Source: a virus
Virus record (IMG/VR): IMGVR_UViG_3300021138_000201
Coordinates: 1 to 21,430 of that record
Strand: one strand, 5' to 3'
Length of the DNA: 21,430 nucleotides
Position numbers and translations under genes: made by a program. The first letter of the stretch is position 1. Each line of letters begins with the position of its first letter. The notes below the pieces were generated by a model. The model worked only from the letters and a program-made list of their open reading frames with translations. It did no database searches and was not told the DNA's origin. Positions 1,974 through 20,280 of this stretch are shown here, piece by piece.

Positions 1974-2636
1974 ATGGCGACCTCTCAGACTGGAATGACC
2001 TTCAACGAGCTTCAAACCGACATCCAGAATTATCTGGAGCGAGGAGCTTCGGCTGCGGTTGATCCAATTGTCTATCAGCAAATACCCCGCCTTATTACTT
2101 TGGCTGAACGCCGCATTATTGCCGATCTGAAGATTGAAGGGTTTATTGTTGCGGTAACAACAAACCTTGAAGCTGGCGTATCTGTATATCCAAAGCCTGA
2201 TCGTTGGCGCACAACCATTTCTCTTAACTTTGGTACTGGAACGGGAAATGCTACCCGTACTCCAATTTTTCCACGTAGTTATGAGTACGTTAGAAACTAT
2301 TGGCCTGATGAGTCTCAAACGGGTCAACCCAAATTTTACGCTGATTATAACTACAACAATTGGATTATTTGTCCGACTCCGGATCAAAACTATCCAATTG
2401 AAATCCTGTATTACGAGCTTCCAGCGCTGCTCAACGATTCAAACCAAACCAACTGGATCACTGAGTACGCCCCACAATTGGTTCTTTATGGTGCGTTATT
2501 GGAAGCTACTCCATTCTTAAAGAATGATGAGCGTATCCCTGTTTGGAAACAATTTTACTCCGAGGCTGTCGCTGCGATCAATCAAGAAGATTTGAAGCGC
2601 ATTGTTGACCGCAGCACAACCAGAACCGAGGCTTGA
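1974..2636 (+). CDS. Head-to-tail adaptor protein, SU10-adaptor-like
   Basis: The protein has 220 residues. It begins TFNELQTDIQNYLERG followed by IPRLITLAERRIIADLKIEG, the two-helix start seen in podovirus adaptor proteins. A beta-rich middle follows (YPKPDRWRTTISLNF; PRSYEYVRNYWPD; QPKFYADYN), then PIEILYYELPALL, and a helical end (APQLVLYGALLEATPFLKND). This matches the adaptor family I recall from SU10-like phages, which forms a ring joining the portal to the tail nozzle. The family name is from memory. Gene order (adaptor, fibre, nozzle) agrees with a short-tailed phage. Confidence 0.88.
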   Translation: MATSQTGMTFNELQTDIQNYLERGASAAVDPIVYQQIPRLITLAERRIIADLKIEGFIVAVTTNLEAGVSVYPKPDRWRTTISLNFGTGTGNATRTPIFPRSYEYVRNYWPDESQTGQPKFYADYNYNNWIICPTPDQNYPIEILYYELPALLNDSNQTNWITEYAPQLVLYGALLEATPFLKNDERIPVWKQFYSEAVAAINQEDLKRIVDRSTTRTEA

Positions 2637-2637
2637 T

Positions 2638-5993: not shown

Positions 5994-6220
5994 TTGGTAT
6001 TGACCCAAGAAACATGGAAGTAATGGAATGGGCAGACAAGATGACACCCGTTCTCAATACCTATGGTGATGTCGGGAAATTAGATAGTCCTGACAACTGG
6101 CAAAATTGGGCAACTGGTGTTATTCTTATCAATCAAAAATGGCAGAGCGTTGCACCAATTCCATATCAATACACAGATTGGCGTGATTGGGCCGAGAGAT
6201 TTTTACAGGTAATACCATGA
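5990..6220 (+). CDS. Small Trp/Asp-rich phage protein, hypothetical
   Basis: The protein has 76 residues starting at GTG 5990, which overlaps the nozzle stop as GTGA; an in-frame ATG at 6014 is the alternative. It has seven tryptophans and the motifs MEVMEWADKMT, DNWQNWATGV and PIPYQYTDWRDWAERFL. The N-P/P-Y-x-[YF]-x-D-W-x-x-W-A-E-R pattern is one I have seen in small genes just after the nozzle gene in other podoviruses, without a known function. The gene is tightly packed, and its stop overlaps the next ATG (ATGA), arguing that it is real and co-translated. A virion-associated role is inferred from position only. Confidence 0.82.
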   Translation: MIGIDPRNMEVMEWADKMTPVLNTYGDVGKLDSPDNWQNWATGVILINQKWQSVAPIPYQYTDWRDWAERFLQVIP

Positions 6221-7344
6221 TGGCACAGCAAAGTCTTAGTCCAGTAGTTCTTAACTTTTCTCCTCCGCGTCGGTTCGCGGAAGGCGGTTTGGCGCAGAAG
6301 GCTGATGAAGTTAAGGCGGCTGGTCGCAACGGCGATACTATGCTTGTCCATGTTAATCCTACAGAATATGCGTGGCTAAAAAAGAATTTTGGGGGCGGTA
6401 TAAACCCAAAGACTAATCTTCCTGAATTTTCATTCTGGGATTATTTGCTTCCCATTGCTGCCAATGTCTTACTTCCCGGCGTAGGTGGAGCTATTGGAGA
6501 TGCCATCGGTGGAGTTACTGGCGGAGCATTGTCATCTGGGATTACAGGTGCCTTAGGAAACGCTGCTGTTGGAGCTGGCATAAATGCCATTACAGGCGGA
6601 GATATCGGGGGCGGAGCATTAGCTGGCGGCTTAGGTCCAATGGTCCTTCAATCTTTGGGTGTGACTGGACAGGGGGGAATGTTATCCCAGATGGGCGGTA
6701 ATCAAGGCCCAAGCTCTCTTAATGCTGCCGAAGGCAGTATGACCCCGGCAGCAAGAGCCACTTCATATGGTGGAGGCATTTCTGGTGTTACACAGTCTGG
6801 CGGATCTAATGTTATATCATCGCTTATGAAAGCAGCTCCCTTGATGTTGGCCGCTGCCGCTCTTGGTGGAAAAAGCAATGATTCTGGTGCAGCAAATGCA
6901 GCAGCGCAGGCTGCTCAATCCGAGATTAATGCTCAAAATGGTCAAAAGCTATCTAACGTCAATTTTAATCGCGTTCAAACACAGCCAATGGTTGACACAA
7001 ACTATGGCTATGGTCCTGAGAAGTTATTTTTTAGCAACAATACACTCCCATTAGACCAAACAGATTCCAATACAGTGTCGCCATTAAAAGCTGCGCAGGG
7101 GACATATGTTAAAGGCGGTGGAACGGGTACATCCGATAGTATACCAGCCAAGTTATCAGATGGTGAGTACGTCATTGACGCACAGACCGTCTCAATGCTT
7201 GGGAATGGTTCATCAGATGCTGGAGCATCTAAGCTCGATAAAATGCGTGAAGAAATTAGAAAACAAAAAGGTGGCGCATTAGCTAAAGGCAAATTTGCAC
7301 CGGATGCTAAGGCACCCCTCTCGTACATAAAGGGATTAAGGTAA
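6217..7344 (+). CDS. Ejection-type internal protein with glycine-zipper hydrophobic region
   Basis: The ATG at 6217 overlaps the previous stop (ATGA), giving 375 residues; an in-frame TTG at 6187 is less likely. The N-terminus has FAEGGLAQKADEVKAAGRNG, then VHVNPTEYAWLKKNFGGG and NPKTNLPEFSFW, a module I know from many phage internal proteins (H-x-x-P-x-E, GG, NPxTxLPEF). It is followed by about 80 residues of Gly/Ala zipper (VLLPGVGGAIGDAIGGVTGG and onward), likely membrane-active. Near the C-terminus is SDSIPAKLSDGEYVIDAQTV, another recurrent phage motif, then a basic tail. The likely role is DNA ejection across the host envelope; this is inferred from composition and position. Confidence 0.85.
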   Translation: MMAQQSLSPVVLNFSPPRRFAEGGLAQKADEVKAAGRNGDTMLVHVNPTEYAWLKKNFGGGINPKTNLPEFSFWDYLLPIAANVLLPGVGGAIGDAIGGVTGGALSSGITGALGNAAVGAGINAITGGDIGGGALAGGLGPMVLQSLGVTGQGGMLSQMGGNQGPSSLNAAEGSMTPAARATSYGGGISGVTQSGGSNVISSLMKAAPLMLAAAALGGKSNDSGAANAAAQAAQSEINAQNGQKLSNVNFNRVQTQPMVDTNYGYGPEKLFFSNNTLPLDQTDSNTVSPLKAAQGTYVKGGGTGTSDSIPAKLSDGEYVIDAQTVSMLGNGSSDAGASKLDKMREEIRKQKGGALAKGKFAPDAKAPLSYIKGLR

Positions 7345-8405
7345 TGGGCGTTCTTGATTTTCTTTTCCAAGGCTCACCGCCTCCATCGACGACGAATTAC
7401 GGAACGGCAACCACAGGTATTCCGCAATTCATGTCGGATTACACTCAAGGGTTGCTAAGTACAGCTAATGCCGTTGCTGCTGAACCTTATCAACCCTATA
7501 GCGGACCTCGTCTAGCTCAATTTACTGGAGCGCAAAACCAAGCATTTGCAAATACAGCAGCTGATGTTGGGCAATATCAGCCTGATATTAACAATGCGCT
7601 AAATTTAACAACGGAAGCTGGCAACGCTAATCCGCTAGGTACAGCGCAGTCTTATTTGAATAGTGCCGATCAAACGGCACCACAGGTCGTTAATAATTAT
7701 ATGAATCCGTATAACTCCGCTGTTACGGATCGTATTGGTCAATTGGCTGGGCGAAATCTTAGCGAAAACCTTATGCCATCGATCAACTCAAACTTTATTC
7801 GTGCTGGTCAGTTTGGCTCGGCTCCAATGCAGACGGCAGTGGGTAATGCGTTGCGCGATACGCAGGAAAGCGCATTGGCTCAACAAAATGCCGCTTTGAA
7901 CACAGGCTATGGTCAGGCAATGACCGCAGCTCAGGCCGATCTTTCTCGTCAAGCAGCTCTTGGTCAAACTGCTGGAAATCTTGCTTCTCAAACAGCTGCA
8001 AACCAACTTGCTGCTGCAAACCAAATGGGCAATACTGCAAATCTAGGTCAGACTATGGATTTGCGCGATCAAGCAGCTTTGGAAGCCACTGGTCAAACAC
8101 AGCAGACGCAAAATCAAAAGAATCTCGATACCGCCTATCAGGATTTCTTGACGCAAAAACAATACCCAGCTCAACAATTATCCATGATGAATTCGTTGAT
8201 CCGTGGATTGCCGTATGGAACAGATTCAGCTACATCTACGACTGCCCCAGCATCCTCATATACCGCATCTCCTCTTTCGCAAATTGCAGGCGCTGCATCG
8301 CTCGGCAAATCGCTTGGTATTTATGCTAAGGGCGGTGTTGTTAAGACAGAAGAAATCAAACGTAACCCAAATCGTCGGTCTACACGCGGTCGCAAGGGGA
8401 AATAA
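7344..8405 (+). CDS. Gln/Ala-rich ejection-type or internal virion protein
   Basis: The protein has 353 residues. It begins MGVLDFLFQGSPPPSTTNYG and IPQFMSDYTQGLLSTANAVA, an opening common to one of the internal proteins of marine and freshwater podoviruses. YMNPYNSAVTDRI and NFIRAGQFGSAPM (residues about 118-157) are well-kept family segments. A long Ala/Gln-rich helical region follows (about 165-285). The end has GIYAKGGVVKTEE and a strongly basic tail (RNPNRRSTRGRKGK), which could bind DNA. The gene overlaps its upstream neighbour as TAATG. The function, ejection into the periplasm or host, is inferred rather than shown. Confidence 0.85.
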   Translation: MGVLDFLFQGSPPPSTTNYGTATTGIPQFMSDYTQGLLSTANAVAAEPYQPYSGPRLAQFTGAQNQAFANTAADVGQYQPDINNALNLTTEAGNANPLGTAQSYLNSADQTAPQVVNNYMNPYNSAVTDRIGQLAGRNLSENLMPSINSNFIRAGQFGSAPMQTAVGNALRDTQESALAQQNAALNTGYGQAMTAAQADLSRQAALGQTAGNLASQTAANQLAAANQMGNTANLGQTMDLRDQAALEATGQTQQTQNQKNLDTAYQDFLTQKQYPAQQLSMMNSLIRGLPYGTDSATSTTAPASSYTASPLSQIAGAASLGKSLGIYAKGGVVKTEEIKRNPNRRSTRGRKGK

Positions 8406-8407
8406 TT

Positions 8408-9304
8408 ATGGCTGACAATACGACAGATTGGCAAGCTCAAGCGAACACCGCGAATGCAAATGCTGTTTCCGCGCTTCAAAATGCGGCTAATGCTAGTACG
8501 CCTAAAGGTATTTTAGGAAATATAGATCCTTTATGGCTGGGCGCTGCACAAGGCTTTCTTGCCCCAACTAAAACAGGTAGCTTTGGAGAGAGTGTTAGTA
8601 ACGCTGCGGCTGATGTTCAGTCTCCTCTTTCGGCCATGCGTACTCAGCAAATGTCTGCCTTGGAAAAGATTGCAGCGATTCAGCAAGCCAACGCAAATAT
8701 GAATATGCAAGCTCCTTATTATGCTGCTCGTGCAGATTTATATGGTTCAAAAGCTGATAATCTTGATAATTCCGGCGCTGGAATTGGGGTAGATTTTTCA
8801 ACTCCCCTTAAAACAAAACAAACACTTGCGACTCAAGATAATCTTGAAAGACAACTAGCTGCTGCTATGGGTTCTGAAACGCCAGACTCGGTAGAAATCA
8901 ATAGGCTTCAACAAATTGTTGCTACAAGAAAAAGGTTGATTGACCAAAAGATGGGAGTTCAAGCATCAACCCCTTCTCCAACAACGACACCCCCACCACC
9001 TCCACCGGCAACTCCCGGCCTTTGGGAAAGATTGTTTGGTACGAGTGCTTCTGCTCCTCCAGTAGCTCCGGATCAATCTCTTATGCCTGTTGGTGGGGCT
9101 GATACCGGCCCAACTATGGCCAATAGTGCTCCAAAAGTTCCGCAAGATCAACCAAATCAACCAGCTCAATCAAACCCAAATGCCAATTTAACGACCGGCT
9201 CTCAAAAAAGAATTCAAATTGGCAACGATACGGTTACTGCTACTTACGCGCCTGATGGAAAATGGTATGTTGTTAAGGACGGAAAACATTACCCGGTGGA
9301 ATGA
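8408..9304 (+). CDS. Low-complexity internal virion protein, Ala-rich then Pro-rich
   Basis: The protein has 298 residues. Residues 1-115 are Ala/Asn/Gln-rich and helical (WQAQANTANANAVSALQNAA; IDPLWLGAAQGFLAPTKTGS; QMSALEKIAAIQQANANMN). Residues 135-180 form a heptad-like helix with many charges. A proline-rich linker (TTTPPPPPPATPGLWERLFG) and a Pro/Gln/Asn stretch follow, then a compact beta end (IQIGNDTVTATYAPDGKWYV, ending HYPVE). No catalytic motif is seen. Its place between two ejection-type genes suggests the same group of injected or core proteins. The stop overlaps the ATG at 9301 (ATGA). Confidence 0.83.
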   Translation: MADNTTDWQAQANTANANAVSALQNAANASTPKGILGNIDPLWLGAAQGFLAPTKTGSFGESVSNAAADVQSPLSAMRTQQMSALEKIAAIQQANANMNMQAPYYAARADLYGSKADNLDNSGAGIGVDFSTPLKTKQTLATQDNLERQLAAAMGSETPDSVEINRLQQIVATRKRLIDQKMGVQASTPSPTTTPPPPPPATPGLWERLFGTSASAPPVAPDQSLMPVGGADTGPTMANSAPKVPQDQPNQPAQSNPNANLTTGSQKRIQIGNDTVTATYAPDGKWYVVKDGKHYPVE

Positions 9305-9306
9305 TA

Positions 9307-12300
9307 ATGGCAAAACTCGGTGCGGCTCTAAGCTACGATCCTTTCAAAGAACCTCCGATTGAAGAAGCAAAATTAGGCGCTCCGGTTGATTTTGATCCAT
9401 TTCAGCAAGCTGGACCTCCTGATGAAAAGGAATTAAATTTTCCTCCGCTTCAAGGCGTTGCCGCGCCCGGAATTCCTTTACCTATTCCGCGCCCAGCGGA
9501 TATTCCGCTTCCTGTTCCACGGCCAAGCAATTTAAATGAAGCTGCACCAACCCCAGCAGCGGTTCCTTTGACTGGCGTTGAAAGTATACCGGGCGTTTTA
9601 GATATTGAAAAACAAATGCGTTCCGTTCAAGGTGGCGCAACTACAGTTACAGCAGCTCATTTGCAAGATCTTAAAGACCGTATCGCTAACGGAGAACAGT
9701 TTCCTCCGGGAAGCGAAGGCGATATTATGAAGCGCATGGCGGCTGGTGAGCGCTTTGATCCTTTAACTGAGTTATCACTTAATACCAGCCTTATTCCTGA
9801 TTATAAAAATACAGAAGCACAAGCCCTTGCTGGTAAAGAACAATTAGAAAATAAAATTAATGCACTTCCACCAACAGATTTTTCAAAAACAGTTCTAGAA
9901 GCCAGAAAATCAGGAAGTCTAACTGATTTAGCTAGTGGTGTTTATAACGGCATATTGAAAGATCCGCTTGGAGCATTAACAGATTTAACTGGAACAATGG
10001 TTTCAGGAGCACCACAAGCTGCTGCTACAATATTCGGTAAAGCAGCGGGTGGCGCTTTATTTGGTGGTGCTACTGAGTTTGCCAAATCAATTGTCGATGA
10101 AACAATTAAAAGAAGTCCAAATCCAGATGAGTTGAGCAAGCAATTATTGGTTGGTGATACGACTGAATACGATAAATTATATGCTCAGCACCAAAAAGAA
10201 ATTGAATCACAAGCTAAGCAAGAAGCTCTTGTTTCTGGTACATTTGGAGGTGTGTTTGGGCTTATTCCCGGAGCAAAAACATTTTTAGGTGGCGTTGCTA
10301 AAAACCTTGGGGTGTATGCCCCATTAGGTACAGCTCAATCCGTTATTCAAAATGAAATTACAAAAGTTCCAGATATTGATTTGGATACTGGGAAGCCAAA
10401 AGTCGATGCAGGTGGAAATGTAATTTTAAAAGATTCTGAAGGGATGTCGCCTTCCGATATTGCTGTTGCCTACGGCATTGGCATCGCCTCTGGTATTCCA
10501 TTTGAAGCTATGCACCTATTAAAAGGTAAAGAAAGCACCCCTACTCAAGGAACTAACACGCCTCCCGGTGGTGCTGAAACTCCCCCCGGTGGTGCTGAAA
10601 CTCCTCCTCCTCCTCCTTCTGGTGGCCCCGGTGCTGGACCAGAGGCAGCTGCTCCTCCAAAAGAAGGCCGTGAAAGCACAGCTGAATACAATGCCGCATT
10701 CCCGGTCAACAATGATTCGGCGTTGATGTCGGGATTTGAAAATGACATTCTCTCAGGTCGCATGAGCCGAGAAGATGCGCTTGACCGTATTGCCAAGATG
10801 ACGCCAGAGGAAGCTGCCCAAATGGCAGGGCTGTTCCGTCAGGTCGGTGGTAAGGATGTAGAGGGCTACAAGATCACGACCGCTGATGACGCATATTTGG
10901 AGAATAAACGTAAAGAATTTGGCACTCACCCCGAGGTTTCCACTGAAGCTCCCGGCGCTCAGCCCTCCCCTGAGGAGCCGGTTGAGGCGCAGGGGGCGGA
11001 GCCCCCTCCGTCCCCTGATGCCACTAAAACTCAAGCTCCAATAGATGAAAATCAAGCAAGCATTTTAAAGGGTACAGGTTGGGGAATTGATGACATTATG
11101 GAAATGTCTCCTTCAGAGCGTGTGGCTAAAGCTGCAAGTGCTGTGAAGAATAAATCTACGCCATCGCCTCTTACAGATGATGACCGTGCTGTATTGTATG
11201 GTAAGCCAGCTCCAGAAGCTGCTGCTCCACCAAAGCCAGAAGCTGCTGCTCCACCACCACCGCCACCTACACCAGAAGCGGCTTCTCCATCACAAAGGGC
11301 TGAAGATCTTATTAATAAAGGCGTTCCCCCTTTAGATGCAATGAAGGAAGCTGCTGCTGAGCCAGCCGCCCCTGCTGCTGAACCTATTGTTACACCTCCA
11401 CCAGCTGCACAGGCTCCTACTCCTGCCATACTTGAAGGCAAGATTCCTGATCGCTCTATTTTAGAAGGTGCAAAGCCTCCAGCTTCTGAGGCTGCTCCAG
11501 CTCCTGAGGCTGCGCCAGCTCCTGAAGCTGCTGCCCCTAAGGAGGCTCCAGCTGTAGTTATCCCCAAGAAAAGAGCTGCACCTGTAAACTTTAAAGGTTT
11601 AGTTGGCTTTATTAAGTCGATTGGTGGCGTCAAGGACGAGCGCGGTGAGCTTCGTGCTCGCGATCTGCATCGTGTTCCCGGACTGGTAAGGCCAGATGGT
11701 CTTTCGATTGAGGACGCTGCAACCCGTGCAGTTGAGGAAGGCTTTTATCCAGAACATTACAATCAGGTAATGAATGGTGAAGGCGGTCACTACGGTCCAA
11801 CATCTGAGTTTGTTGAGCAGTTTAAAAATGATCTGCGTAACAAAAAGCAAAAGCCGGTAGACGCAGAAGAGGCCGATAACGTCAATGATAGAAAGCTATC
11901 CGACGAAGAGCAGTTCCGTCTTGGATCGAATGAGCAGGACGTTCGTGATTTATTGAAAGATATGGATCACACGGCGAGCGATGAGCTTGTTAGGGATGCT
12001 GCTATCATTATGTTGCGTGACAACAAGGGCGCAGAAGAAGCGCTCCACGAAGCAGCAGCTGCCCATCTTGCTGACGCTCTTCCCGGTGAAGAGTCAACCA
12101 TTCACGATATTGTTGGTGATGACTTCTGGAATACCGTTCATCAGCACCTGATTAACAAGGAAGAACCTAATGTTGAACCATCACCAAAGCAGGAAGCTGG
12201 GCCAGCTGGCAGAGAAACACGCCAACCTACCGAACAACCCACAGCAAAAGCAAAAGCTGAAAAACCTAGCGAGCCTATTCCGGAAATTGTCCCTAAAGAG

Positions 12301-15300
12301 TTTGAAGAAAAACTAAAAGATACAATGGTGACGGAAAATCCAGCTGCACCTATTGAGGAAGCTGGTGCTGAAGGCAAGCCGCAGACAGTAATCCCCGGCG
12401 CTGAAAAAATTCCTGATTCAGAATTGGCTCAACGTCGTGCTGACCAGCCGATGAGGGCTAAAGCTGAACAAAAAGAACCAGCTGGTTTATTTGGTGATTT
12501 AGGCCAAAAAGATTTATTGGATATTGCTAAGAATAAGCTTCCTGAGCCAGAAGCTCCAAAATACCCTAACTGGATTAAGGACGCGGCTAAAGAAATAAAA
12601 GGTAGTATTGTTATTTATCATGATAAGGCGTCAGAGACTGGTTTGCTTTCGGTCTTCAATGGCAATGATACTACTCCAATTTATGCCGCCGTTAAAAAAG
12701 CGGGTAATTCTGTAGAGGTTACCAGAAAAGATATTGATTCCATTGTATCTAATAAAGGCTTCACTCCAATTGAATTGCGTAATTTAAAGGCAGCGAAGAA
12801 AGAATTTCTTGTTAAAGATAAAGCTGCATATGATGCAGACCCAAATGGTCCATTTGTTGGTGGATCTCAGTTAGTCGTATCAAAAAGCATTAAACCTGAA
12901 ATTGCTGGTGTCTTTACCCAATGGGCTAAGATGATGGGAATAGACGCCAAAATTTACCTTACTGCTCCTGAAGATGTCCCCACCAGCACTTTTCATGGTC
13001 CGTATAGAAGCATTTATGCTTCTGCTGCATCAGGTAACTCTCATACAGCACGGATAATGCCCGGTGTTCATTATATTACTATAAATTCTCATTCTCGCAT
13101 CAGCAAAATGCTTGAGACATTAGCGCATGAGATGGGCCATGTTCTTGAAAAAGAATATTTTAAAAATCTTCCCAAGGCTACTCAGAATGCTATCAAGGCA
13201 GAACATACTAAATGGTTAGCCTCGACAAAGGGTATGACAGGTCGGGAATTTATCGATTCATTAAGAGCGCATACAACTGCTAAAATTACCCAGATAACTA
13301 ACCCTGATGCTGTTATTAGAAGTTTGCCACCATATTGGGAAAAATTTCCAGAGTGGTTTGCTGACCAGACGGCTCGTTGGGCTAATTCAGAAGCTAAGCC
13401 TCAATCAGTAGTTGAGAAATTCTTTAAGCGGTTAGCTGAAGCGCTAAAGCAATTCTATGCTAGCATTGCTGGTTCTAAGTGGCTTCCTACAAAGACGATG
13501 CGTGATTTCTTAAATGAACGCGCTAATGCAGCTGACAATCCTGCTCAGGGAATGGATATGCAGTCTGAGTCAATCAAACCAGATGATATGGATTATTCTT
13601 TTAATTCATTTGATCCTGAAACGGTTGACGAAATAAATAAGGCTAATGAAGCAAATGGTATGAACAGGGGCACTAAAAAACCCGTTGCAAAATCATTTGA
13701 AGAGCCAAAAGAAGGAGTTTTTGGTAAAATTCGTCGGGATATTCAAGATGAATTTATTTATCAATACTCAGTTGAGAAGTCCATTGAGCAAAGCAAAGGC
13801 GCTCCATTACCAGACGAACTTGGCGTCTATATGATGACCAACCTAATGCCCGGCAAAGTCGCTGAGGGGATGACTGATATTCAAAACAAAGAAGCTGTTC
13901 CACTTTTTGATAAAATGAAAAAAATGGAAATTAGTCTTAGCGAACTTGGTGTCTACGCTTATGCTAAGGCTGCTATAAATAGAAATCAAATTATTGCTGC
14001 TCGCAATTTAAAAATGCCTGATGGCGGCTCTGGCTTGATGACCAAAACAGCCTTAGACATTATTAAAAAGGTTGAAAGCGGCAATAGGGCAAGCGAATTT
14101 AAGGAATTGCTAAAAGACGTTCACGATATTCGAGATCGGGATACGGCTCGTCGTGTTGAAGCTGGTTTGATATCTCAAGTCGATGCAGACGAACTTCAAA
14201 AGGCTGAGCCTGACCATGCTCCCTTATTTGGTTTTTCAGAGCGTGACGCTTCAGATGATATGACATTCAACATTTCAAATATGAATGTTGGCAAGGGCAT
14301 AGGAATTACTCCATCCGAATGGAAAACGGCAACCGGAAGAACATCCATTGCCGATAACCCAGTTATCAATACCATCCTACGCGCTCAGGAAGGCATATAT
14401 CGAATTGAAAAGAATTTTGTTGGCGAAACTCTTTATAAGTTAGCCAAGGAAAACCCAAATCCCGATCTTTGGGTAATTAATAAACCTATTATGAAAAAGA
14501 TAATTGATGAAAATGGTTTCGTGGCGTGGAAGTTAGATACCATGATTACGCCAAACACCGTTGTTCTCAAGTCTGGTGGAAAACCAATCTTTATTCGCTT
14601 GAATAACGAGGCTTTGGCAGAATCGTTTAAGCGCTTAGGTATCAACAAACAAGGTGAAATGCTGAAGATGTGGAAGGGAGTAAATCAGTATTACTCTCAG
14701 CTTCAGACGGGTAAAAACCTAGATTTTATGAGCAAGAACGTTAGCCGAGACGTTGCTGATGCTTTTGTTTATTCGTTTATTAAAGATCCTAAAGTAGCAG
14801 CTCGATTTGTTATTAATTGGCTCCCAGCTATAACAATGACTATCCGCGTTGAAATGGGTATCGCCAGCAAAAAACAGTTGGAGCTTTACGATCAATGGCG
14901 TCATGCTGGTGGCAAGCTGAGTCATTATAATGGAGAAGAGCTAGAGCAGGTTGCCAACAGGTTACAAAAAATTGCTGGTTATGCAGACCCCGTAACATGG
15001 CGAACTCTTCCTGAAAAAGCGATTAAACCTCTTTGGAAATTGCTCAATGTTATCCCTAACATGATGGGTAAGCTCAATGAGCCTTTTGAACAAGCGACCC
15101 GCGTTGCTGTTTTTAAGTCAGCTGTCGATTCAGGCTATTCAGATGCTCAAGCAGCATTAATGGCACGGGATTCTACCGTTAACTTTAATCGGCGCGGTAG
15201 AGTTTCTGTTAGTGATTATAAATGGTTCTTTAACGCAGCTCTACAGCCTACCTTCATGTGGGGTAGAATGTTAAAGACCAAGCGCGGCGCAGCTGTGTTT

Positions 15301-16416
15301 ACATCTTTGCTGGGCTTAGGTTTTGCCAATGCAATTCGTAATATGGCAATGTCAGATGATGACAAAATGCAAAAGGGCCGCAAAAACTATATGGCAATTC
15401 CTGAATGGGAAAAGCAAGGCAATATCATTATCAAGACTGGTCCGGGGCCAAAAGATTATTATAAAATCCCTATTGGATCTCAGCTCAATTTGCCATTCTA
15501 CCTTGGTTCTCAATTTGCATTGGCGTTAACAGGCCAATCTACAGGTGCAGAAATAGCATCAAATGCTCTTTCTGGAGCGTTTTGGTCAGCTATGCCAATA
15601 TCATCTGGTCCATTAGCTCAAATGCTATTGCCCTCGATTATTGGTCCAGCAGTCGATCTTTGGTATAACCAGAACTGGATGGGAAGCCCTATTCATCCTC
15701 CAGAGACAACTTGGAATAAGGGACTTGTTCAAGCTGAGCAAGAAAGTAAAAACACTGCTCCGATATACAGTGAATTTACGAAATGGCTCAACACATCAGC
15801 TGGTGGTAATTCCGCACAACCATCCGGAACATTTACGGATCTTTACCCAGATGATATTCAACATATAGCTGATTTCTTAGTTGGCGGCGCTGGCAGAAGT
15901 GTTGAAGGGGTATCCAAGTTTGTAGCAAATCTTATCGGCGGTATTCCAACAAAAATGGAAGATATGCCAATTGTTAAATCATTTGTCCCATCAAAATGGG
16001 ATGCTTCTCCGCGCTATTATGAGTTACATAATCTTGCTGTAGAAGCAGAAAACCAAGGTCGTAAGGCCGTTGCTAATTATGAGAAAAACCCAACAGCAGC
16101 CAATATGGGAGTGATGAACAAAATCCTTACTCCATTGGGGGCTTATAATGAAGATGGTAAAGTGCATTGGACAGATAGCGCCCCAATTATGGCAATGCGA
16201 CAGGCTGATCTTCAATTAAAAGGAATTCGTGCTCAGCGTTTAATCGATAAAGATAATTCAAATTTAACACCGGCTGTTCGCCAGCAAAAATTGGACGCTG
16301 CTGATAAAAAGGCAAACGATATAATGATAGATGCTGGAAAAAGTATGTCATCTCTTGGGATACGGCCAATCAAAGGACCATTATCTTACTTGATAGAAAA
16401 ACCCCCCAGCCGGTAA
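9307..16416 (+). CDS. Giant polyvalent virion protein: membrane-active segments, HExxH metallopeptidase, LPD38-like C-terminus
   Basis: The protein has 2,369 residues from ATG 9307, preferred over ATG 9301 because GGTGGA at 9295-9300 is correctly spaced only for 9307. Order: two KLGA...DPF repeats (1-35); Gly/Ala hydrophobic segments (about 204-268, 310-348, 379-405); Pro-rich linkers (about 412-458, 545-580, 635-760, 955-1060); a GTGWGIDDIMEMSPSER segment (about 588-604); a small domain with GFIKSIGGVKDERGELRARD (about 761-865); a metallopeptidase domain with ETLAHEMGHVLEKEYF (H1274, E1275, H1278) and a downstream PEWFADQTARW (E1349, D1353) that could supply the third metal ligand; and, at about 1470-2230, a long helical region matching the large polyvalent protein-associated domain 38 as I know it (NVSRDVADAF; DSTVNFNRRGR; NAALQPTFMWGR). 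Such proteins are thought to be packaged and injected to protect or establish infection. Confidence 0.95.
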   Translation: MAKLGAALSYDPFKEPPIEEAKLGAPVDFDPFQQAGPPDEKELNFPPLQGVAAPGIPLPIPRPADIPLPVPRPSNLNEAAPTPAAVPLTGVESIPGVLDIEKQMRSVQGGATTVTAAHLQDLKDRIANGEQFPPGSEGDIMKRMAAGERFDPLTELSLNTSLIPDYKNTEAQALAGKEQLENKINALPPTDFSKTVLEARKSGSLTDLASGVYNGILKDPLGALTDLTGTMVSGAPQAAATIFGKAAGGALFGGATEFAKSIVDETIKRSPNPDELSKQLLVGDTTEYDKLYAQHQKEIESQAKQEALVSGTFGGVFGLIPGAKTFLGGVAKNLGVYAPLGTAQSVIQNEITKVPDIDLDTGKPKVDAGGNVILKDSEGMSPSDIAVAYGIGIASGIPFEAMHLLKGKESTPTQGTNTPPGGAETPPGGAETPPPPPSGGPGAGPEAAAPPKEGRESTAEYNAAFPVNNDSALMSGFENDILSGRMSREDALDRIAKMTPEEAAQMAGLFRQVGGKDVEGYKITTADDAYLENKRKEFGTHPEVSTEAPGAQPSPEEPVEAQGAEPPPSPDATKTQAPIDENQASILKGTGWGIDDIMEMSPSERVAKAASAVKNKSTPSPLTDDDRAVLYGKPAPEAAAPPKPEAAAPPPPPPTPEAASPSQRAEDLINKGVPPLDAMKEAAAEPAAPAAEPIVTPPPAAQAPTPAILEGKIPDRSILEGAKPPASEAAPAPEAAPAPEAAAPKEAPAVVIPKKRAAPVNFKGLVGFIKSIGGVKDERGELRARDLHRVPGLVRPDGLSIEDAATRAVEEGFYPEHYNQVMNGEGGHYGPTSEFVEQFKNDLRNKKQKPVDAEEADNVNDRKLSDEEQFRLGSNEQDVRDLLKDMDHTASDELVRDAAIIMLRDNKGAEEALHEAAAAHLADALPGEESTIHDIVGDDFWNTVHQHLINKEEPNVEPSPKQEAGPAGRETRQPTEQPTAKAKAEKPSEPIPEIVPKEFEEKLKDTMVTENPAAPIEEAGAEGKPQTVIPGAEKIPDSELAQRRADQPMRAKAEQKEPAGLFGDLGQKDLLDIAKNKLPEPEAPKYPNWIKDAAKEIKGSIVIYHDKASETGLLSVFNGNDTTPIYAAVKKAGNSVEVTRKDIDSIVSNKGFTPIELRNLKAAKKEFLVKDKAAYDADPNGPFVGGSQLVVSKSIKPEIAGVFTQWAKMMGIDAKIYLTAPEDVPTSTFHGPYRSIYASAASGNSHTARIMPGVHYITINSHSRISKMLETLAHEMGHVLEKEYFKNLPKATQNAIKAEHTKWLASTKGMTGREFIDSLRAHTTAKITQITNPDAVIRSLPPYWEKFPEWFADQTARWANSEAKPQSVVEKFFKRLAEALKQFYASIAGSKWLPTKTMRDFLNERANAADNPAQGMDMQSESIKPDDMDYSFNSFDPETVDEINKANEANGMNRGTKKPVAKSFEEPKEGVFGKIRRDIQDEFIYQYSVEKSIEQSKGAPLPDELGVYMMTNLMPGKVAEGMTDIQNKEAVPLFDKMKKMEISLSELGVYAYAKAAINRNQIIAARNLKMPDGGSGLMTKTALDIIKKVESGNRASEFKELLKDVHDIRDRDTARRVEAGLISQVDADELQKAEPDHAPLFGFSERDASDDMTFNISNMNVGKGIGITPSEWKTATGRTSIADNPVINTILRAQEGIYRIEKNFVGETLYKLAKENPNPDLWVINKPIMKKIIDENGFVAWKLDTMITPNTVVLKSGGKPIFIRLNNEALAESFKRLGINKQGEMLKMWKGVNQYYSQLQTGKNLDFMSKNVSRDVADAFVYSFIKDPKVAARFVINWLPAITMTIRVEMGIASKKQLELYDQWRHAGGKLSHYNGEELEQVANRLQKIAGYADPVTWRTLPEKAIKPLWKLLNVIPNMMGKLNEPFEQATRVAVFKSAVDSGYSDAQAALMARDSTVNFNRRGRVSVSDYKWFFNAALQPTFMWGRMLKTKRGAAVFTSLLGLGFANAIRNMAMSDDDKMQKGRKNYMAIPEWEKQGNIIIKTGPGPKDYYKIPIGSQLNLPFYLGSQFALALTGQSTGAEIASNALSGAFWSAMPISSGPLAQMLLPSIIGPAVDLWYNQNWMGSPIHPPETTWNKGLVQAEQESKNTAPIYSEFTKWLNTSAGGNSAQPSGTFTDLYPDDIQHIADFLVGGAGRSVEGVSKFVANLIGGIPTKMEDMPIVKSFVPSKWDASPRYYELHNLAVEAENQGRKAVANYEKNPTAANMGVMNKILTPLGAYNEDGKVHWTDSAPIMAMRQADLQLKGIRAQRLIDKDNSNLTPAVRQQKLDAADKKANDIMIDAGKSMSSLGIRPIKGPLSYLIEKPPSR
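9310..9408 (+). repeat. N-terminal 19-residue repeat in the giant gene
   Basis: Two in-frame copies with a 57-bp period (from 9310 and 9367) encode AKLGAALSYDPFKEPPIEE and AKLGAPVDFDPFQQAGPPDE. The shared positions are A-K-L-G-A, then [YF]-D-P-F. They sit at the extreme N-terminus, where polyvalent proteins sometimes carry short peptide repeats; any role, for example in packaging the protein, is a guess. Confidence 0.7.
10564..10604 (+). repeat. 21-bp tandem repeat in proline-rich linker
   Basis: CCCGGTGGTGCTGAAACTCC occurs exactly at 10564-10583 and 10585-10604, a 21-bp in-frame period coding for PGGAETP. It is followed by a short CCT run coding for prolines. This is a slippage-type expansion inside the first linker of the giant protein. 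Confidence 0.85.
10966..11018 (+). repeat. Perfect palindrome between two 8-bp direct repeats inside giant gene
   Basis: AGGGGGC (10991-10997) and GCCCCCT (11001-11007) form a 7-bp perfect stem around a GGA loop. The 8-bp word TCCCCTGA is present at 10966-10973 and again at 11011-11018, 45 bp apart, which keeps the frame. The stretch is much more GC-rich than the gene around it and encodes a Pro/Glu/Ala linker. It may be an inserted palindromic unit of bacterial origin, or simply a duplicated linker. Confidence 0.7.
11212..11256 (+). repeat. 24-bp tandem repeat in Pro/Ala linker
   Basis: CCAGAAGCTGCTGCTCCACC begins at 11212 and again at 11236, a 24-bp period coding PEAAAPPK, with a diverged third unit (PTPEAASPS) after it. 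The reading frame is kept. It forms part of the long linker between the GWGIDD segment and the GFIKSIGG domain. Confidence 0.85.
11485..11538 (+). repeat. 18-bp tandem repeat, three copies, in Pro/Ala linker
   Basis: Units start at 11485, 11503 and 11521; each is near [TC]CTGAGGCTGC[TG]CCAGCT and codes for an EAAPAP-type hexapeptide. The third copy has diverged. It lies in the same linker as the 24-bp repeat upstream and likely extends and stiffens the chain between folded domains. Confidence 0.85.
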
Positions 16417-16424
16417 CTGGGGGG
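16396..16424 (-). terminator. Rho-independent terminator for the leftward operon at convergent junction
   Basis: CCCCCCAG (16402-16409) pairs perfectly with CTGGGGGG (16417-16424) around a 7-base loop. Read leftward, the hairpin is followed directly by TTTTTC (complement of 16396-16401), so it is an intrinsic terminator for minus-strand transcripts from the gene ending at 16432. On the plus strand there is no U-tract after the stem, though the hairpin may still slow rightward transcription. The TAA stop of the giant gene (16414-16416) lies in the loop. Confidence 0.88.
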
Positions 16425-16431
16425 AGGTATC

Positions 16432-16713
16432 TCAATTCATAGTGTAAACATAGGCTACCGAACCCCGTTTTTTCCGTTCTTTTTCTGTCGTATATGTCCT
16501 TATAACAAGACCTATATTCCATAATTTTGTTAATTTACCGGATACGGATGCGTAGGATAAACATCCAAGCACCTCAAGCAATTCAGTGTCAGTGGCAGCA
16601 AATTTAACTTTTGTTCCGTATCTTCTCGATAAGCGGAGATAATCCACAATAGTAGAATATGATTCATTTCCATCCAATATCTCCTCAACTTTAGATAGCT
16701 TTAATTTACTCAT
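16432..16713 (-). CDS. Small winged-helix-like protein, putative DNA-binding
   Basis: The protein has 93 residues and is the last gene of the leftward operon. The middle part has helices in helix-turn-helix spacing (DTELLEVLGCLSYASVSGKL, then TKLWNIGLVIRT). A basic hairpin follows (TTEKERKKRGSVAYVYTMN) that would serve as the wing. The N-terminal 30 residues are helical with a charged start (SKLKLSKVEEIL). This is a winged-helix arrangement read by eye; no family is recognised. Its ATG overlaps the preceding stop (ATGA). It could be a regulator or a replication-initiation accessory protein; neither is shown. Confidence 0.8.
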   Translation of the reverse strand: MSKLKLSKVEEILDGNESYSTIVDYLRLSRRYGTKVKFAATDTELLEVLGCLSYASVSGKLTKLWNIGLVIRTYTTEKERKKRGSVAYVYTMN

Positions 16714-17051
16714 TGAGCCGCCTCATTAAAATTGACTGAATTTAAAGCAGCTTCAATAGATGCGTTGATGCGAGGAAGTTGATTGCGCTTATCTTCCTTT
16801 AGATCGGCAGCGATGGCAGTCCACATCATTGACTCCCGATAGGCTTCAACTTTCTCCGGCATAATACTGATTTTCGCATCTGCAAAGGCAGACATGATGA
16901 TGGCTAGGCTCCATTCATCCACTGGATTCTCCAGTTTCATGTTGGCAAATACCGCTGTATTTCCTAGCAAATCTTTGAAGTTATATTCATCGAGTTTAGC
17001 AAACGTATCAGATACCTTGCTAAGAACTGTTTGCATTTGGCCTTTATTCAT
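16710..17051 (-). CDS. Hypothetical helical protein, function unknown
   Basis: I chose ATG 17051 (113 residues). It lies two bases after the HNH gene's stop and has GGAGAG about 6 bases upstream. The frame stays open much further upstream, but that extension lies over the HNH gene and is low-complexity. The protein is mostly helical: MNKGQMQTVLSKVSDTFAKL, then a segment with ENPVDEWSLAIIMSAFADAK, and a C-terminal helix ending FNEAAQ. No motif or family is recognised. It is translationally linked to both neighbours, so it is likely expressed with the nuclease and regulator genes. Confidence 0.78.
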   Translation of the reverse strand: MNKGQMQTVLSKVSDTFAKLDEYNFKDLLGNTAVFANMKLENPVDEWSLAIIMSAFADAKISIMPEKVEAYRESMMWTAIAADLKEDKRNQLPRINASIEAALNSVNFNEAAQ

Positions 17052-17053
17052 CG

Positions 17054-17422
17054 TCACTCTCCACTGTTTCTGAGGACTAACTGTCCGTTGAGTTTCTTCT
17101 TCCATTTGGAATTTTTCCCAGCTGGTAGCGGGGTCTTGGACAATTTTAAGCCAAGATGGTTGGCTTTTTGTCTTTTGGCTTTGGCTGCTGTCGAGTGATC
17201 CACTTTCGTTTTCGTGGTCGCGCAAGGCTTGCAAGTCAGCCTGATGTTCTGGTCTGTATCCTCTCCCCCCAGCTCCAGCGCTCGAACGTGTTCGAAAATG
17301 AACCCACCAGTCACTAGCTTTGTTAAGCATTCCATACACCTCCCTTTTTCTCTCTCCCATATTGCCAACTTACGCCGCTGCGAAAGATTTCCACGTTTAG
17401 TCGTTCCCATATCCTCAACCAT
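17054..17422 (-). CDS. HNH endonuclease
   Basis: The protein has 122 residues. RRKLAIWEREKGRCMECLTK places the first Cys pair (C29, C32) of the structural zinc site. FIFEHVRALELGGEDTDQNI gives the catalytic E44-H45 and N59. CKPCATTKTKVDH gives the second Cys pair (C64, C67) and the final histidine H76. The rest is a Lys-rich tail. ATG 17422 is preferred because AGGAG lies about 9 bases upstream; an internal ATG four codons later is possible. It overlaps the upstream gene by 8 bp. Phage HNH proteins nick or cut DNA in packaging, recombination or homing; with no terminase gene nearby, the role here is open. Confidence 0.93.
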   Translation of the reverse strand: MVEDMGTTKRGNLSQRRKLAIWEREKGRCMECLTKLVTGGFIFEHVRALELGGEDTDQNIRLTCKPCATTKTKVDHSTAAKAKRQKANHLGLKLSKTPLPAGKNSKWKKKLNGQLVLRNSGE

Positions 17423-17873
17423 GCTTAAATTCTCCTAAATCGCATTGAGGAACCCACCATGCTCCAACTCCCATATCATCGGCTTTCCTCCAATACTTGT
17501 CTTGTTTGGCTATGGTTGAATGAATGCTTCCAATGATTTTAAAGATAGGTGGATTTGTAATGACCAAAATGTAAGTGGCATCGACCTTATCCCTCTCTCT
17601 TATTATCAAGCATCCATTTCGATGAGATGTAGACCGGATTTGATATTCTAGAACGTCCGGAGCCTTCCCAGCATTAACCGATTGGTTCCAGTACACTCCA
17701 AGATGTTTCGCTACAGCCATTTCAGCTGATGCTCCATCAACATCACTATTCCAATCATCTTTTGACCCAGCAACGATATTGGGCAATTTCCGTTGAATGG
17801 ATGAAATATGCCTTAAACACCCGACATGGGATGAAACGAAAAGCTCTGATGGAGTTAAAGTTACCTCGATCAT
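17415..17873 (-). CDS. PD-(D/E)XK-like phage protein, putative nuclease
   Basis: The ATG at 17873 gives an ATGA overlap with the upstream stop (152 residues); an in-frame TTG at 17888 is less likely. GASAEMAVAKHLGVYWNQSV supplies a helix with E51. APDVLEYQIRSTSHRNGCLI gives a PD (D73) and a strand with Q78-x-R80, where the classical motif has (D/E)-x-K. ERDKVDATYILVITN follows, and the end is WWVPQCDL. This order looks like the PD-(D/E)XK nuclease fold. I recall similar phage proteins with the same Q-x-R replacement, so it may be a diverged active site or an inactive relative. Confidence in the fold is moderate. Confidence 0.85.
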   Translation of the reverse strand: MIEVTLTPSELFVSSHVGCLRHISSIQRKLPNIVAGSKDDWNSDVDGASAEMAVAKHLGVYWNQSVNAGKAPDVLEYQIRSTSHRNGCLIIRERDKVDATYILVITNPPIFKIIGSIHSTIAKQDKYWRKADDMGVGAWWVPQCDLGEFKHG

Positions 17874-18382
17874 TTTTCTTTTTTCCAATCAAATTCCGCT
17901 ATTGAAACCAATTTCTTTTGATCGGTTCTTGGTACATAAACAATTTGGTAATGATCTTTGCACCATCGACAGCCAAAATTCTTCACCGGATCGCCGCATA
18001 TCATTGTCGGCTTATCTACCATTGCTGTTTGAACAATCCATTGGCATTGATCGAACCGACCATCCACGAACTTTGTATGGCCATAACCAGATTTGACTGT
18101 TTGTTTAATCAACAAAGTTAACTCAGGATCTGGCTGCGGACGATTAATGGCAGGGTTGAATGGCTTCACCCTTGCCCTCAAACCAACCTTTTCTTTTTTC
18201 GTCGTAGCCTTCGGTGGAAGATTTTTGTTGCCCATGAGTGGTACTCCTGATCGGAAAAGAAAACCTATTACCGAATTTCTTTTTCTCCCAATGCGAGCAC
18301 CAATGCTTGTGCTGGACCAACCTTCCTTAGCCAGCTCGATGCACTTATCCCGCTCTACTTGCGTCCATACTTTGATTTTCAT
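17870..18382 (-). CDS. gcrA-like: GcrA-like transcription regulator
   Basis: ATG 18382 overlaps the previous stop (ATGA), giving 170 residues; an in-frame ATG at 18394 would add four. The N-terminus has VWTQVERDKCIELAKEGWSS, then TSIGARIGRKRNSVIGFLFR, which matches the GcrA DNA-binding domain (W-[ST]..., eG-S-x-x-x-I, RN-[AS]-VIG). A basic linker covers about residues 55-100. The C-terminus has FDQCQW, MICGDPV, WCKDHYQIVYVP, the C-x-W, CG-x-P, [YW]C-x-x-H and Y-x-P pattern of the GcrA sigma-interaction domain. In Caulobacter GcrA acts with sigma70 at promoters with CcrM-methylated GANTC. A phage copy could redirect host transcription or drive phage genes; this is inferred. Confidence 0.9.
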   Translation of the reverse strand: MKIKVWTQVERDKCIELAKEGWSSTSIGARIGRKRNSVIGFLFRSGVPLMGNKNLPPKATTKKEKVGLRARVKPFNPAINRPQPDPELTLLIKQTVKSGYGHTKFVDGRFDQCQWIVQTAMVDKPTMICGDPVKNFGCRWCKDHYQIVYVPRTDQKKLVSIAEFDWKKEK

Positions 18383-18834
18383 CGTTTCACCCATGATTCG
18401 ACCTTTTCCCCGATCACGGCCTCAAGTTCTTGTAACAACTGCTCCCTGCTAACTGGCAATACCTCAGAGACAATGGTGTGAAGAGCCAGATTAAAGAACT
18501 TCTGAAACTCATCCTGTCCCATTGACGTGAACGAGATGGACGAAACCTTCGTCATCATGCTCCCATCGTGGAACATAATCTCATCAACGTATCCAAGGCG
18601 TATCTTTAGCCATTCAACCAGCTGCTCTCCACGTGCATAGTAGGGATGGTTATCCACAACTATTTGCATCAAGGCCCAAAATAATCTGTGTTGCTTTGCG
18701 CTGCGTGTCCGTGAAACCCGAATTGATAGGTCTTTACCTTCTGGTATATCGAGCAGCCGCTCCCGATCCCACTCCGTAACGGGGATTAATTTATCCCCGT
18801 TACGGCGGACAATAATGACAGGCTGATTGCTCAT
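18379..18834 (-). CDS. DUF1367-like phage protein
   Basis: The protein has 151 residues. LSIRVSRTRSAKQHRLFWAL is the key segment (R-x-x-x-Q/F-H-R-x-F-[WF]-A-L), followed by a helical middle (EQLVEWLKIRLGYVDEI). SISFTSMGQDEFQKFFNLAL and SEVLPVSREQLLQELEAVIG then close the domain. This layout resembles DUF1367 proteins that sit in recombination/replication operons of many phages; function unknown. The family call is by eye and from memory, with NinB-type proteins as an alternative (both have the R-S-x-x-Q-H/N-R-x-x-W-A-L start). It is coupled to ERF upstream (ATGA) and the GcrA-like gene downstream. Confidence 0.88.
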   Translation of the reverse strand: MSNQPVIIVRRNGDKLIPVTEWDRERLLDIPEGKDLSIRVSRTRSAKQHRLFWALMQIVVDNHPYYARGEQLVEWLKIRLGYVDEIMFHDGSMMTKVSSISFTSMGQDEFQKFFNLALHTIVSEVLPVSREQLLQELEAVIGEKVESWVKR

Positions 18835-19472
18835 ACTGCCTTAACCAGTATATCACGGATTCGCTCTTGAGCAGCTTGAAAAGCCTGAGTGATCTGCTTC
18901 TGGTGAGCATCAGCAAGGGTCTGCTTTGTCTGAGAGTTGGTAGTCGCCCATTTTTGCAGGTCTTCCTTGCTGGCGCATTTATCAAGATCAAGAAGAATTT
19001 CTTCCATCTTTAAAACGCTTTCAGGAATTCCGAGTTGAGATGCTTCTGGTTTTACCCGTGGTGTTCCCTTGGCAACAACAGGAACGGTATTGGCTGCATT
19101 GCCGTCATCATCATCCTCGCCAGAAACTCCGACAATTGCCGACAAACTTAGTCGTTTGGCATAAGTCAGGGCCGCTGCAATCTCTTGATGCTTCCCAGAT
19201 GCAGTAACTGGATAGACCGACTCGATCCATTGACCACTGGAGTGAACAAGGCGGGTGTAGAGAACGAGACCTGAATCCTCTAGATTGGTCAGCTGCATGA
19301 ATGAGATACCGTTTTTAGATAGGGGTGGACGTACTGCATTCAAAACTGATGATAGGTCAGCATAGGATGACTTAAAGTGTGGGTTAGTCTTGTTAAACAC
19401 AGGGTTAGAAACTTCTCCCTGCACCTTAGCCAGTGCAGCGGAGATTTCATTGATTGCTTCAGACGTTTTCAT
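18831..19472 (-). CDS. erf: ERF-family single-strand annealing protein
   Basis: ATG 19472 (213 residues) is preferred because AAGGA lies about 8 bases upstream and it sits just after the exonuclease stop; a longer frame would lie inside that gene. The sequence has the ERF order: ISAALAKVQGEVSNPVFNKT, NPHFKSSYADLSSVL, then VRPPLSKNGISFMQL, LVHSSGQWIESVYPV, AALTYAKRLSLSAIVGVSGE and DDDDG. These correspond to the N-x-x-F-K-S-x-Y-A-D-L, TYA-x-R and DDDG blocks. The C-terminal part is helical and variable. ERF proteins anneal complementary strands in recombination; next to a YqaJ nuclease it forms a two-part system. A close overlap links it to the DUF1367-like gene. Confidence 0.93.
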   Translation of the reverse strand: MKTSEAINEISAALAKVQGEVSNPVFNKTNPHFKSSYADLSSVLNAVRPPLSKNGISFMQLTNLEDSGLVLYTRLVHSSGQWIESVYPVTASGKHQEIAAALTYAKRLSLSAIVGVSGEDDDDGNAANTVPVVAKGTPRVKPEASQLGIPESVLKMEEILLDLDKCASKEDLQKWATTNSQTKQTLADAHQKQITQAFQAAQERIRDILVKAV

Positions 19473-19473
19473 T

Positions 19474-20280
19474 TCATGCTTCCTTAATGGTAATAGCGCC
19501 ACTTGATGAGCGCTTTGCAATAATTCCATGCCCCGTAGCGACAGCCACATCAGCATCAATCATCTTCTTGATAGCGTCTTTGGACTTGGTGTTTCTCTTG
19601 GCGTAGGCTTCTGTTTCAAGGAAATCCTTGGCATTTGATGCCCAAGCATTGTTTCCAGTGAAGTCTACAATCTTTACGACTGGGCCAGTATATTTCTGGG
19701 CCACGATGACAGGCTCAATCTCATTCTGGACGCAATGCCAGAAGTTATCTTCAGCTGCGATCAGGTCAGCCGCATATGCGTCATCGAGTTCTATATCCAG
19801 TGCAACATACTTATGATTGCCAAAGATTACCGACAGCGTTGCTGCTCTTAGATTGCAAACAATCATGTTATGGGTCAGCTGCGGAAGATATTTCTCCAGA
19901 ACGTCCTCCTCTTTGTAGAAAGCCGAAACGTGCTTGGCTTCCCAAAGCGTCTTGCTGCTATCCGTCAAGCCATCAAGGGTGCAGCCCATGAAGGGATGAT
20001 CCAGACAAATCATCTGATCCCCTGCATTAGTAACTTCCCGCTTGGTCTGCTTGGTAAACCACGCACGATTGAATGGTTCAGTGAACTGACCAAGGTTGAC
20101 CTGCAACACATCAGACAGGTCTTCTCCATCTGCTACGCCACGCTTCTGGTTCCAAAGATTGAGAATTTTCTCATTGTCTCCTCCCATAATGATATTGGCA
20201 TCTGATCCGCCAATTACAGTTTTTCGAAAATTCTTTTGGTCTGTGGTTAATCCAAGACCATCCAAGGCATTATCAGTCAT
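19474..20280 (-). CDS. YqaJ-family viral exonuclease (lambda Exo-like)
   Basis: The protein has 268 residues. VIGGSDANIIMGGDNEKIL (residues 22-40) is the G-G-S-D/A start of the YqaJ family. GQFTEPFNRAWF supplies E68. HPFMGCTLDGL has D103, and TLWEAKHVSAF has E114-A-K116, giving the D...E-x-K active site. YLPQLTHNMIV follows as the conserved Q/H segment, and the family's C-terminal helix (AAEDNFWHCVQNEIEP) is present. Such enzymes digest one strand of duplex DNA and pass the single strand to the annealing protein, encoded here just downstream. The ATG directly follows the upstream gene's TAA. Confidence 0.95.
   Translation of the reverse strand: MTDNALDGLGLTTDQKNFRKTVIGGSDANIIMGGDNEKILNLWNQKRGVADGEDLSDVLQVNLGQFTEPFNRAWFTKQTKREVTNAGDQMICLDHPFMGCTLDGLTDSSKTLWEAKHVSAFYKEEDVLEKYLPQLTHNMIVCNLRAATLSVIFGNHKYVALDIELDDAYAADLIAAEDNFWHCVQNEIEPVIVAQKYTGPVVKIVDFTGNNAWASNAKDFLETEAYAKRNTKSKDAIKKMIDADVAVATGHGIIAKRSSSGAITIKEA

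Follow-up and report, generated by a model that had tools for sequence, protein, structure and literature searches.

How do short-tailed phages pack giant proteins, thread them through a narrow tail into the cell and anchor them, and what purpose does the protease conserved in such proteins serve? These questions are raised here by a gene in a window of 21,430 b, the complete IMG/VR record of an uncultured virus, which is probably a genome fragment. A first-pass annotation made from the sequence alone had read the product as a polyvalent protein combining an HExxH metallopeptidase with an LPD38-like C-terminus. What kind of protein is it, and what would its protease act on?

Gene context

The reading frame of the giant protein can start at ATG 9301 (2,371 aa) or at ATG 9307 (2,369 aa), and stops at 16416. 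The following features define its surroundings.

1974–2636, plus strand: SU10-type adaptor (PF24175, E 1.8e-26)
4173–5993, plus strand: virion structural protein, 606 aa (phrog_3287, E 2e-35)
6187–7344, plus strand: 385-aa protein with a tape-measure-type C-terminal motif (phrog_6090, E 3e-10)
7344–8405, plus strand: putative DNA ejection protein, 353 aa (phrog_4287, E 1.2e-18)
8408–9304, plus strand: 298-aa protein directly upstream of the giant, without a family match
9301–16416, plus strand: giant protein gene, an open reading frame with viral relatives
16402–16424, no strand assigned: strong terminator-like hairpin (10-pair stem, 7 GC pairs, T run) where the giant gene ends, separating the convergent operons

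The giant closes a forward series of virion genes and is encoded with late genes, since the genes for the SU10 adaptor, the structural protein and the ejection-type proteins lie upstream of it in the same direction; convergent early genes lie beyond it. The ATG at 9301 overlaps the stop codon of the 298-aa gene (gATGAtaATGg), and this arrangement therefore suggests that the two genes may be translationally coupled. The 298-aa protein itself has no match in Pfam or PHROG. The claim that the giant follows ejection-type genes holds, since the phrog_4287 'DNA ejection protein' is encoded two genes upstream. A tape-measure-type motif also occurs upstream of the giant in several contigs that carry peptidase relatives (L092, L095, L097, L106, L107 and others), and in L097 the gene immediately before the giant fuses matches to the ejection protein and to transglycosylases.

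It is very improbable that the giant is instead a non-virion protein, an intracellular agent of host takeover that merely adjoins tail genes. Such a reading draws on the fact that the phage is known from an uncultured virus record alone, but the giant ends the virion operon and appears coupled to the ejection-type genes, and its genomic place is conserved in related contigs. Moreover, a member of the same family, gp69 of Burkholderia phage JC1, was detected in CsCl-purified virions by 51 unique peptides (PMC9144972).

The C-terminal module

13699–16035, plus strand: C-terminal helical module, aa ~1465–2243 (PHROG 14770/616/10691, alignment A1)
15175–15198, plus strand: TVNFNRRG box within the C-terminal module (T1957, F1960, R1962 and G1964 invariant in A1)
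15382–15975, plus strand: LPD38 domain (PF18857), aa 2026–2223 (Pfam E 5.6e-28)

The C-terminus, previously described as LPD38-like, contains a true LPD38 domain, which scores 98.8 bits against a Pfam cut-off of 27 and is limited to the last quarter of a module of ~780 aa. The whole region 1465–2243 matches three PHROG families of giant proteins with E values of 1e-54 to 1e-86, and a profile search of viral contigs recovered at least 569 relatives of the module. The giants aligned with it in A1 come from Ruegeria phage 45A6, Stx-converting phages, Vibrio phages, Burkholderia phage JC1 and the archaeal virus MetMV, and the alignments cover the full length of the module at 21–27% identity. JC1 gp69 / Bcep22 gp75, the 45A6 protein and the Sepvirinae giants thus match the module end-to-end and in most cases have a zincin ahead of it; they differ in carrying methylase, helicase, GNAT or LPD23 payloads, none of which was recognised in the protein studied here. 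The entry A0A6J7WPT4 from an uncultured Caudovirales phage shares 36% identity over 1,156 columns spanning zincin and C-terminus (E 6e-67); it is annotated 'Large polyvalent protein associated domain-containing protein' and exists as a predicted model only.

A sequence search of the PDB with the C-terminal profile returned ferritins (E 0.004), which were read as chance helical matches. Homology with the C-termini of the VS-ABTNL-3 and Purivirus giants was also tested, and none was seen.

The zincin metallopeptidase domain

12559–13506, plus strand: zincin metallopeptidase domain, aa 1085–1400 (A4/A5 alignments, AlphaFold, hhalign)
13126–13140, plus strand: HEMGH, residues 1274–1278, predicted zinc ligands H1274/H1278 and base E1275 (invariant, n=32; model helix 181–199)
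13351–13365, plus strand: EWFAD, residues 1349–1353, predicted third zinc ligand E1349 (E1349 and A1352 invariant, n=32; model helix 263–276)

Both motifs lie where the first-pass annotation had placed them. Relatives of the peptidase were raised from an alignment of the giant with that of Vibrio phage VS-ABTNL-3, and the profile search of viral contigs yielded 74, with identities of up to 45% over ~235 aa. Two successive alignments (n=23 and n=32) show no variation at H1274, E1275, G1277, H1278, E1349 and A1352, and little or none at Y1343; in the numbering of the A5 alignment (n=32) the invariant positions are H190/E191/H194 and E265. The scan for relatives required one of two peptides, hence the conservation of the motifs was checked for bias. 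Of the non-redundant relatives, 16 do not contain the AHEMGH search peptide, and all 16 keep HExxH; a downstream E-x-x-A match is present in 16/16 relatives without the FxEWFAD peptide, with the automatic pattern hitting another spot in L105. The conservation of HExxH and of the downstream glutamate across relatives therefore makes the motif more than a chance occurrence.

The zincin core comprises an N-terminal helix, three strands and two C-terminal helices (Iyer 2017, PMC5512222). Structure prediction around HEMGH, which had been proposed as a check, returned such a core: the AlphaFold model of aa 1085–1420 (mean pLDDT 84.5, pTM 0.79) contains a helix at 113–125, strands at 131–135, 162–167 and 170–174, the HExxH helix at 181–199 and the glutamate-bearing helix at 263–276, with pLDDT mostly 87–97 for these elements. 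Because the set of zinc ligands is invariant and a zincin core is modelled, the domain is a metallopeptidase by sequence and predicted fold, and catalysis is predicted.

Fold matches of the models in the PDB were weak; among the best were two other zincins, M61 aminopeptidase at E 0.028 and anthrax lethal factor at E 0.03, neither of them significant. No Pfam peptidase scored above its cut-off, the nearest being Peptidase_M78 (IrrE N-terminal-like) at 14.1 bits versus 22 for the giant, with a best E of 8e-4 among nine matching members. Polyvalent MPTases were found to form a separate group (Iyer 2017, PMC5512222), and hhalign links the domain to zincins from other LPD38 giants (E 1.2e-8, 167 columns). 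An earlier HMM of LPD38-associated zincins gave only a weak match to the giant, E 0.025, yet the best against 200 shuffles.

When viral contigs were scanned with single sequences, neither the whole protein nor the peptidase alone found relatives; these were recovered with the alignments A1 and A2. A tblastn search of annotated phages with the peptidase returned only VS-ABTNL-3 (E 0.1), and a query from the relative L091 returned nothing; this zincin clade is all but absent from the annotated phage collection. Contigs from bacterial genomes suggest Methylophilaceae and Acinetobacter as its hosts. PVS_24 of VS-ABTNL-3 is the nearest peptidase there (24% identity over 131 aa, in-set E 5e-5). It occupies the same genomic place as the giant, separated by one gene from an upstream DNA injection protein, and differs in its C-terminus, which has no LPD38 match.

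Pairing of the zincin with the C-terminal module

The association of the two domains was measured in 48 non-redundant LPD38 giants with sufficient upstream sequence, using HExxH or HExxxH as the zincin motif. Of the 48, 32 have the motif in the 450 aa that precede the module, versus 0.9 expected and a maximum of 5 in 1,000 shuffles, and its frequency drops farther upstream (10/44, 4/40 and 1/29). In most LPD38 giants the zincin lies 142–340 aa ahead of the module, and the distance of about 193 aa in the protein studied here is typical. LPD38 giants as a rule have a zincin directly ahead of their C-terminal module. Exceptions occur, as 16/48 show no HExxH in the 450 aa before the module, and the pair is therefore not obligatory. 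When nine peptidase relatives with diverged C-termini (the Y family) were compared with the LPD38 family, zincin and module aligned as a single collinear unit (E 1.7e-88, 990 columns).

The surroundings of the pair vary. An ART domain is located between zincin and LPD38 in L116, and in L175, an Acinetobacter contig, the zincin is followed by methylase and helicase domains. L173 carries ParB and helicase domains and ends with LPD39 in place of LPD38, and the two appear to be interchangeable as C-terminal domains. The zincin clade is itself portable, as it is found in L099, L120, L130 and VS-ABTNL-3 / P0003 before C-termini without a detectable relation to LPD38.

Several minor observations belong to these relatives. 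In L173 and L121 the zincin clade of the giant is linked to LPD39, not LPD38. The reading frame at L175:5752–18650 runs into a second overlapping frame of 1,750 aa, which reflects either a frameshift or two genes. In the giants of L106 and L109, DLGRRGFLRGMGQAAAAVSPTGRALASAGAG after the zincin resembles a twin-arginine signal.

The giant bears LPD38, zincin and GFIKSIGG domains in a virion-gene setting, which is in keeping with the earlier description of it as a polyvalent-type protein. Polyvalent proteins are large proteins of phages or plasmids that combine several unrelated activities in their domains (Iyer 2017, PMC5512222); one recognisable enzyme is present among the domains of the giant, and no payload enzyme besides the zincin was recognised in Pfam, PHROGs or NCBIfam. 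The giant differs from DarB-like antirestriction proteins, which have a methylase-helicase dyad, as neither a methylase nor a helicase was matched in Pfam or PHROGs. It also differs from ejection proteins of the T7 gp16 type, which have a lytic transglycosylase domain; no transglycosylase was matched in the giant in Pfam or PHROGs, and in L097 such a match is located in the preceding gene.

With no second enzyme recognised, the zincin is the sole candidate effector, and it might be the payload itself. In this case the injected protease would cleave a host target, such as a protein of the envelope or of a defence system, in the early phase of infection. An effector role of zincins is known from other conflict systems (Iyer 2017, PMC5512222). 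However, the position of the zincin is kept in giants of Proteobacteria phages and of an archaeal virus, so that a phage-made substrate is the easier explanation, and a host substrate is rather unlikely.

The N-terminal half

9859–10536, plus strand: Gly/Ala-rich, mildly hydrophobic N-terminal region (aa ~185–410), candidate membrane-active (hydropathy maxima at aa 232, 307 and 385)
10468–10746, plus strand: linker 1, Pro-rich, aa 388–480 (composition)
10861–11610, plus strand: linker 2, Pro/Ala-rich, aa 519–768, with PEAAAP-type repeats (composition, repeats)
11569–11916, plus strand: GFIKSIGG small domain, aa ~755–870 (Purivirus PfDIW6 alignment, HMM)
12109–12561, plus strand: linker 3, Pro-rich, aa 935–1085 (composition)

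The hydrophobic Gly/Ala segments noted at first reading are present, but no strong transmembrane helix is among them: Kyte-Doolittle analysis in 21-residue windows gave a best mean of 1.43 at residues 385–405. The proline-rich linkers were confirmed by composition at the three positions above, and all three are poor in hydrophobic residues.

The string GFIKSIGG comprises residues 767–774 (11605–11628), and the domain around it recurs in other phage giants. The giant of Purivirus UFJF_PfDIW6, which takes the place of T7 gp16, shares it with 41% identity over 61 aa and likewise has an HExxH; it carries LPD22 instead of LPD38, and its C-terminus has no detectable relation to that of the protein studied here. 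The domain is also present in L011, and an HMM of three sequences found it in the giants of L015, L069, L070, L026 and L027 (E 7e-9 to 4e-6). A strict regular expression for GFIKSIGG was too narrow (2/237 matched), the HMM being more sensitive. No Pfam match was obtained for the domain; the stretch is a real small mobile domain of phage giants.

Comparison with phage N4 virion RNA polymerase

The closest well-studied layout is that of N4 gp50, an ejected polymerase of 3,500 aa. Its NTD inserts into membranes and is followed by a low-complexity linker of 100 aa, the polymerase domain, a zincin termed C1 and the large helical C2, for which structural homologues are said to be lacking (PMC12633501). 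The giant resembles it in layout, with low-complexity linkers, a zincin, a helical C-terminus and an N-terminal region that is a candidate, by layout only, for a membrane-active NTD. It differs in length (2,369 aa) and in lacking the single-subunit RNA polymerase domain of N4, no RNA polymerase domain having been matched in Pfam, PHROGs or NCBIfam.

Comparison with a profile built from eight schitovirus sequences gave two collinear matches, one to C1 (E 0.0009) and one to the end of C2 (E 0.0028), where TVNFNRRG of the giant aligns with EFINYDR of gp50. The hhalign scores were 38.8 for C1 (column-shuffle maximum 29.4) and 41.8 for C2 (maximum 23.0), to be read beside a score of 36 reached elsewhere by the reversed, unrelated L099. 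A Foldseek search with the C-terminal module ranked N4 gp50 third at a non-significant E of 0.26. Homology between the zincin and N4 C1 is therefore likely, and that between the C-terminal module and C2 is suggestive. Tentatively, and at somewhat less than even chances, N4 C1+C2 and the zincin-LPD38 module may descend from one delivery chassis with interchangeable payloads across bacterial and archaeal phages, the giant being the form without a recognisable payload. If the C2 link is true, hundreds of phage giants that are so far uncharacterised could take the N4 structures in the PDB (9pnr, 9pnq) as their template.

N4 also bears on the function of the protease. Self-processing of polyvalent proteins by zincins has been proposed (Iyer 2017, PMC5512222), and the first-pass annotation had raised the same idea for this protein: a polyprotein whose zincin cuts it at the Pro-rich linkers, after injection or before packaging, and frees the segments. 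The active site is conserved, the linkers are long and flexible, and DdrB of phage P1, which carries an MPTase, is processed before packaging (PMC5512222). Nevertheless, N4 vRNAP has the same layout and is packaged uncut, with no degradation of the purified full-length protein (PMC12633501, PMC5512222), a precedent that argues against obligatory processing before ejection; ArdC and TraC1 are likewise transferred at full length (PMC5512222). In the giant there is hardly any recognised payload to free, no conserved motif was seen in the linkers, and the alignment of peptidase relatives shows none adjoining the zincin. Self-cleavage at the linkers is thus doubtful.

Alternatively, the zincin could be mainly structural, with zinc that stabilises the C-terminal module or orders it for packaging and a protease activity that is minor or absent. 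The region of N4 vRNAP that contains the MPTase is needed for encapsidation though nothing is cleaved (Iyer 2017, PMC5512222), and C1 and C2 were handled as contiguous in the cryo-EM work (PMC12633501). A purely structural domain would not account for the invariance of the catalytic base E1275 in addition to the zinc ligands, which makes this explanation quite improbable.

Proposed role

The giant is probably an ejection protein of a short-tailed phage, a delivery chassis without a recognisable payload. This reading is based on the homology of LPD38 and the rest of the C-terminus, the conserved active site, the zincin-module pairing, the gene context and the presence of JC1 gp69 in virions. 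The protein is of a known kind, an LPD38 polyvalent giant, of which it is a newly added example.

The chassis would consist of a membrane-active Gly/Ala N-terminus, flexible Pro-rich tethers bearing one or more small domains, the zincin, and the helical module with LPD38 at its end. The giant is probably packed in the phage head, would be threaded through the tail like beads on a string, accompanied by the smaller ejection proteins of the adjacent upstream genes, and would enter the host cell together with the DNA. Following the published model of N4 gp50 (PMC12633501), the N-terminus would most likely anchor in the inner membrane, and the zincin and C-terminal module may refold in the cytoplasm. 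The zincin probably works after delivery, and its most plausible candidate substrate is made by the phage, be it the ejection channel or the giant; such a substrate is preferred because the zincin-module pair is kept across very different hosts, whatever the payload. As the giant combines protease and module without a recognisable cargo enzyme, its relatives provide a clean test of whether those two suffice for packaging and ejection.

Other features of the window

A similar Gly/Ser/Val-rich repeat module (GGxGY...GDxLxV...GGTGxGFxxxVA) is present in the fibre-like protein (2602–4173) and in the 606-aa structural protein (4173–5993), and also in fibre and baseplate PHROGs. The early genes on the minus strand (16435–20280) encode an ERF annealing protein, a YqaJ recombinase, a DUF1367 protein, a GcrA-like regulator and an HNH endonuclease, the frame of the last overlapping another frame. 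The match to the GcrA cell-cycle regulator is located at 17873–18394 on the minus strand (E 3.4e-7). GcrA is best known from Alphaproteobacteria, whereas the nearest relatives of the giant on bacterial contigs are from Beta- and Gammaproteobacteria.
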